Source: a virus
Direction: 5' to 3' (one strand)
Virus record (IMG/VR): IMGVR_UViG_3300027973_000220
Span: 1 to 23,867 of that record
Length of the DNA stretch: 23,867 nt
Numbering within the stretch: the stretch's first letter is position 1; each line of letters opens with the position of its first letter. The notes below the pieces were generated by a model, which was not told where the DNA came from, made no database searches, and was given only the letters and a program-made list of their open reading frames with translations. Both the position numbers and the translations under genes were made by a program. Shown piece after piece: positions 10,797 to 11,042 of the stretch.

Positions 10797-11042
10797 CTAG
10801 GTAGCCACGGGGGCTCGTTTAATCTCCTGTGGAGCAAGCAGCGTGTCGAACGACGGCAGTAACTGCCCATTTTTAACGTTGTGTTTTACTAACCCGGTAA
10901 ACAACCTGTTACGTATAAGCGACTGCTTATGAACCATTTCAAACAACTTCAACAAATCCTCTTTAGTTAACTTTTTGGCGTCCATAAGAACTTGTTGATG
11001 TACAAAATTTTGTTCTGCGTCAAGCCATTCAAAACTTAACAT
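10797..11042 (-). CDS. nblA: NblA-like phycobilisome degradation adaptor, with C-terminal extension
   Basis: This is an 81-residue protein from ATG 11042. NblA is a small helical adaptor that binds phycobiliproteins and brings them to the ClpC protease, causing antenna breakdown in cyanobacteria. The first ~56 residues follow the family pattern: an N-terminal L-x-x-E-x-L-x-x-E-Q-x-F segment, a polar middle helix with a K-E-D-L-L-K-L-F-E-M step, and a final helix reading L-I-R-N-R-L-F-x-x-L-V-K-H, whose Leu/Lys lie where cyanobacterial NblA contacts the antenna. Known NblA usually ends near this KH; here 27 more residues follow. Phage nblA genes are established in Microcystis phage Ma-LMM01 and in uncultured marine cyanophages. 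The gene faces its neighbours on both sides and has its own candidate promoter. I am fairly sure of the family; activity is untested. Confidence 0.82.
   Translation of the reverse strand: MLSFEWLDAEQNFVHQQVLMDAKKLTKEDLLKLFEMVHKQSLIRNRLFTGLVKHNVKNGQLLPSFDTLLAPQEIKRAPVAT

Follow-up and report, generated by a model that had tools for sequence, protein, structure and literature searches.

A remote viral NblA homologue of 81 residues with a conserved C-terminal tail in a probable cyanophage

Background

The NblA protein of cyanobacteria is a dimeric adaptor that joins phycobilisomes to ClpC (PMC7966870, PMC7760959). It is already known that phages possess NblA proteins as well, including highly diverged marine forms whose recognition requires HHpred; these phage proteins are expressed during infection and phycobilin is lost when they are expressed in cyanobacteria (PMC9602691). 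In the light of work from 2025 cited in PMC12892361, it matters which phages carry nblA.

The freshwater phages Ma-LMM01, MaMV-DC and PaV-LD possess NblA proteins that score 45-52 bits with the Pfam model PF04485 and have either a tail of 12 residues or practically no tail. The NblA of the marine phage S-SCSM1 (QFG06501), which was recognised by HHpred only (PMC9602691), comprises 54 amino acids, has no tail and does not match PF04485 at all.

Here we describe an nblA-like gene on a linear virus record from IMG/VR (23,867 bases), the whole of which is referred to as the window. Like the genes of the three freshwater phages, it encodes a virus-borne NblA core, probably also in a freshwater cyanophage, and like the S-SCSM1 protein its product is recognised only by remote-homology methods. 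However, with 81 amino acids it is considerably longer than the latter. What appears to be new is a lineage of 81-residue viral NblA homologues with an invariant C-terminal motif.

Results

Organisation of the locus

An initial annotation had placed a phage nblA gene in this region without naming the strand. The reading frame is indeed intact, fills the interval exactly with 81 codons and a stop, and lies on the minus strand, while the plus strand is interrupted by stops over the same stretch (Table 1). Within the replication genes that extend from polA to the primase gene, no other gene lies on the minus strand, and the nblA-like gene occupies the same place in every relative that is long enough to show the locus, including a contig of 51 kb.

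Table 1 Features of the nblA-like locus, with positions in the window
Feature	Position	Strand	Basis or remark
nblA-like gene, 81 aa	10797..11042	-	intact ORF; Pfam, NCBIfam, PDB and profile-profile matches
NblA core, residues 7-54, with L7-x-x-E10-Q11-x-F13 and L51-V52-K53-H54	10881..11024	-	gapless hhalign alignment
Variable linker, residues 55-61	10860..10880	-	window and relatives disagree at 5 of 7 residues
Invariant tail motif LPSFDTLLAPQEIKR, residues 62-76	10815..10859	-	no amino acid changes in 15 relatives
Loose C-terminal end, residues 77-81	10800..10814	-	2-3 of 5 residues differ
Candidate sigma-70-type promoter TTGTCT-N17-TAGATT, upstream of nblA	11063..11091	-	8/12 consensus
Intrinsic terminator of convergent gene 9921-10736	10762..10790	+	hairpin in relatives too
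Convergent neighbour, 271 aa	9921..10736	+	no Pfam match
Divergent neighbour	11123..11671	+	weak phage DNA-methyltransferase match (phrog_799, E 6e-9)

The divergent neighbour probably starts at the ATG at 11123 and not at a TTG at 11048, since the relatives have no start codon aligned with the latter; about 80 bases therefore separate the starts of the two genes. The candidate promoter of the nblA-like gene falls below the threshold of our promoter scan (9/12), but the upstream alignment shows that its hexamers are almost unchanged among the relatives, with a variable spacer. Downstream of the gene, the relatives retain the terminator hairpin but differ in the bases of its loop. NtcA boxes (GTA-N8-TAC) are about as frequent as expected by chance, and none was found near the nblA-like gene.

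Homology of the core to NblA

The only Pfam and NCBIfam match of the protein is NblA, and it is sub-threshold in both collections. PF04485 gives 15.9 bits (E 0.019, residues 10-55), compared with the much higher scores of the freshwater phage proteins and with a gathering cut-off of 25 bits; the relatives score 14.7-16.9 bits and thus likewise stay below the cut-off, and the NCBIfam match has an E-value of 0.086. Because of this we speak of a remote NblA homologue, as which the sequence comparisons identify the protein, and do not claim membership by Pfam's own rule. The initial annotation had named a search without a match to PF04485 as grounds for rejection. At the curated cut-off the protein does lack such a match, NblA being its best Pfam match below that score; but the criterion itself is too strict, since the published NblA of S-SCSM1 gives no match at all. 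As this accepted marine phage NblA also fails, the cut-off discriminates poorly where viral proteins are concerned.

In a phmmer search of the whole PDB, the top match was the NblA of S. elongatus (3cs5, E 0.039, residues 7-54). When the search started from the family alignment, 3cs5 (E 0.13) ranked just behind an unrelated chain (E 0.1), both being insignificant, so that this search alone proves nothing. The profile-profile comparison is much clearer: hhalign aligned the family profile to a profile of eight known NblA sequences from Nostoc, S. elongatus, Ma-LMM01, MaMV-DC and PaV-LD with a probability of 94.4% (E 9e-8), gapless over residues 7-62. The originally proposed NblA pattern of residues 1-54 thus holds for about residues 7-54.

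The sub-threshold scores might also be explained by a chance resemblance, the protein being an unrelated small helical phage protein, and weak NblA hits were indeed seen in some non-cyanobacterial control genomes too. However, the window protein alone scored 37.9 against the NblA profile, twice any control: among 250 ORFs of four other phages the highest score was 18.8, and shuffling gave maxima of 16.6 (300 shuffles of residues) and 18.0 (300 shuffles of the family's columns). Among the 64 ORFs of the window it was the only hit, the next best scoring 13.9. Together with the gapless alignment, the matching residue numbers and the cyanophage context of polA, primase, ThyX and integrase described below, this makes a chance resemblance very improbable.

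The identity of the core to cyanobacterial NblA (PF04485; Anabaena 1ojh, S. elongatus 3cs5) is about 25%, and the alignment is gapless over residues 7-54. L7, E10, Q11, F13, L51, K53 and H54 align with the Anabaena/Nostoc protein at identical residue numbers, so that the L-x-x-E-Q-x-F stretch and L51-x-K53 are shared in the same numbering. L7, E10, Q11 and F13 in the N-terminal stretch as well as L51 and K53 are unchanged in the window and its 15 relatives. The stretch of Nostoc NblA is, reportedly after Karradt (2008), the contact to ClpC, while L51 and K53 at the end of helix 2 of Anabaena NblA are said, after Bienert (2006), to bind the phycobilisome. We take the corresponding residues of the viral protein to occupy the positions of these two host sites. 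Host NblAs were compared via Nostoc plasmid copies and PDB sequences; scans of genome collections for host relatives found none.

The C-terminal tail

Cyanobacterial NblAs comprise 59-65 residues. Typically, though not by definition, an NblA is about 60 residues long and stops shortly after helix 2; the viral protein with its 81 residues departs from this. The initial annotation counted 27 extra residues after position 54. The tail does exist, but Nostoc NblA ends at residue 65, and since proteins of the Anabaena type already extend about 11 residues beyond His54, only about 16 residues are truly in excess; in Ma-LMM01, 12 residues follow the equivalent of His54. Unlike cyanobacterial NblA, the viral protein carries an invariant motif, which begins only at residue 62 and is preceded by a linker (55-61) and followed by a loose end (77-81).

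The protein is encoded at one fixed locus on 15 further IMG/VR contigs, always with exactly 81 residues. These relatives represent eight distinct sequences that are 80-86% identical to the window protein, and no tail-less version was found among the IMG/VR relatives, even with a query of the core only. In the block 62-76, none of the 15 residues is changed in any of the 15 relatives, despite 7-10 synonymous codons in each. Between window and relatives, dN is about 0.06 for the core and about 0.24 for the tail, at a dS of at least 1.7, which is near or at saturation; as the relatives are close to each other, this is effectively one deep comparison of the window with the rest, plus shallow ones. 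Judged from these codon comparisons, the core and the motif 62-76 are under purifying selection. Since the block is invariant at the protein level in spite of synonymous changes, the tail is, by the same measure, a tethered peptide under selection and not run-on sequence.

The tail alone has no match in the PDB, and no similarity beyond chance was detected to the tails from S-EIV1, S-LBS1 and Ma-LMM01; against the end of Nostoc NblA it is marginal (p 0.05).

An NblA-like core with a conserved C-terminal extension is also found in the hypothetical protein AHV82245 of the Synechococcus phage S-EIV1 (KJ410740, 73902-74222) and its IMG/VR relatives. AHV82245 is NblA-like by hhalign (86%, E 5e-6), scores 16.3 bits with Pfam and matches the NblA structure 1ojh with an E-value of 0.007; genes of this type occur on 31 IMG/VR contigs. 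Its tail, D-x-P-T-x-x-E-L-x-E-L followed by an acidic run, has no detectable similarity to the tail in the window. Since both families stay below the standard Pfam and NCBIfam cut-offs, they would escape routine annotation.

In S-LBS1, the 98-residue hypothetical protein SLBS1_A32 (L034:21726-22022), encoded downstream of the lysozyme gene, shows a faint NblA-like pattern by eye. It did not exceed shuffled sequences against the S-EIV1 profile and did so only marginally against NblA; it was the best-scoring 'negative' among the 250 phage control ORFs.

Host and phage context

The neighbouring genes point to cyanophages, mostly of Synechococcus. The integrase is 66% identical to that of S-LBS1, whose host is a phycoerythrin-rich lake Synechococcus (PMC6157547), and the best match of the primase is in S-EIV1. 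ThyX is about 50% identical to proteins of marine Prochlorococcus and Synechococcus phages, although a Pantoea phage scores alike. Pseudanabaena phages are near the top of the matches of polA, and the 51-kb relative encodes a cyanobacterial RpoD-like sigma factor. The host is, by these gene matches, probably a cyanobacterium of the freshwater Synechococcus/Cyanobium type. The view that the gene is a phage NblA homologue and implies a phycobilisome-bearing host, as first proposed, is thus well supported by profile-profile homology, key positions and cyanophage neighbours.

The integrase raises the question of when the protein acts. It might serve during lysogeny rather than as a lytic gene, allowing a lysogen without nblA to recycle its antenna; this concerns the timing only and is compatible with an NblA function. 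In favour of this, the gene stands by itself on the minus strand, keeps its locus and has a putative promoter to itself; moreover, neither nblA nor nblB is present in at least one picocyanobacterium (PMC6337551). However, the 51-kb relative keeps the nblA-like gene while no integrase was detected there, and S-LBS1 was isolated as a lytic phage for which integration was not found (PMC6157547). We therefore consider a role in lysogeny unlikely.

The integrase gene of the window (22305-23189) lies between an HNH gene and the gene at 23190. At this one site it is swapped in the 51-kb relative for the gene of the sigma factor (L103:9092-9991). The window (16302-16997) and relative L008 both have thyX, but no such gene was detected at the corresponding position of the 51-kb relative (G005).

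Discussion

We propose, with a probability of roughly 0.8, that the phage produces the protein as a ClpC adaptor of its own, which sets off the breakdown of phycobilisomes, with the tail tuning partner choice or stability. By homology to NblA, whose helix-loop-helix subunits pair into a four-helix bundle, the viral NblA would dimerise as a helix-loop-helix protein. The end of helix 2 with L51 and K53 would bind phycobilisome subunits, and the N-terminal L-x-x-E-Q-x-F stretch would recruit the host ClpC unfoldase. The antenna would thus be dismantled in infection; amino acids would be set free and the light input would fall. As the contact positions are kept, the same action as in known NblAs is most likely in this virus as well, although binding to the antenna, delivery to ClpC, the bleaching itself and whatever the tail may do are inferred.

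The tail can be pictured as a flexible linker with an invariant 15-residue peptide that adjoins the antenna-binding end. This peptide may be a second docking site that adjusts which phycobiliprotein or host partner is engaged; alternatively, it may shield the adaptor from degradation along with its cargo. A more far-reaching version, which we put forward only tentatively and hold to be rather improbable, is that the peptide redirects the adaptor by adding a second site of recognition, so that a phage-evolved two-site degradation adaptor results. Its targets might then be, for instance, the phycoerythrin rods of picocyanobacteria or another host protein destroyed by ClpC.

The position of the tail directly next to the phycobilisome-binding end, and a core that has diverged from every known NblA, would also fit a protein that keeps the NblA fold with a changed function. 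As an antagonist or decoy that occupies host NblA/ClpC or the phycobilisome, it would slow down bleaching in the course of infection, with the tail blocking delivery to ClpC. However, the position of the host ClpC-binding motif is kept with L7, E10, Q11 and F13 invariant, and the viral NblAs assayed so far are active adaptors (PMC9602691), which makes an antagonist quite unlikely. The invariant tail offers a small and directly testable way into the question of how a protease adaptor is fitted by phages to the antennae of picocyanobacteria.

Two further observations concern other genes of the window. The gene at 18807-20051 encodes a lysozyme fused to a C39-like peptidase domain, that is, a two-domain protein of the lysis type. 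Moreover, the products of 7243-8733 and 23190-23750 resemble each other over some 48 residues at the N-terminus, a segment that in both cases matches one stretch of the relatives (52-58%); the product of 7243-8733, in which a DUF5648 domain occurs together with a long PA repeat, is therefore probably tail-fibre-like.
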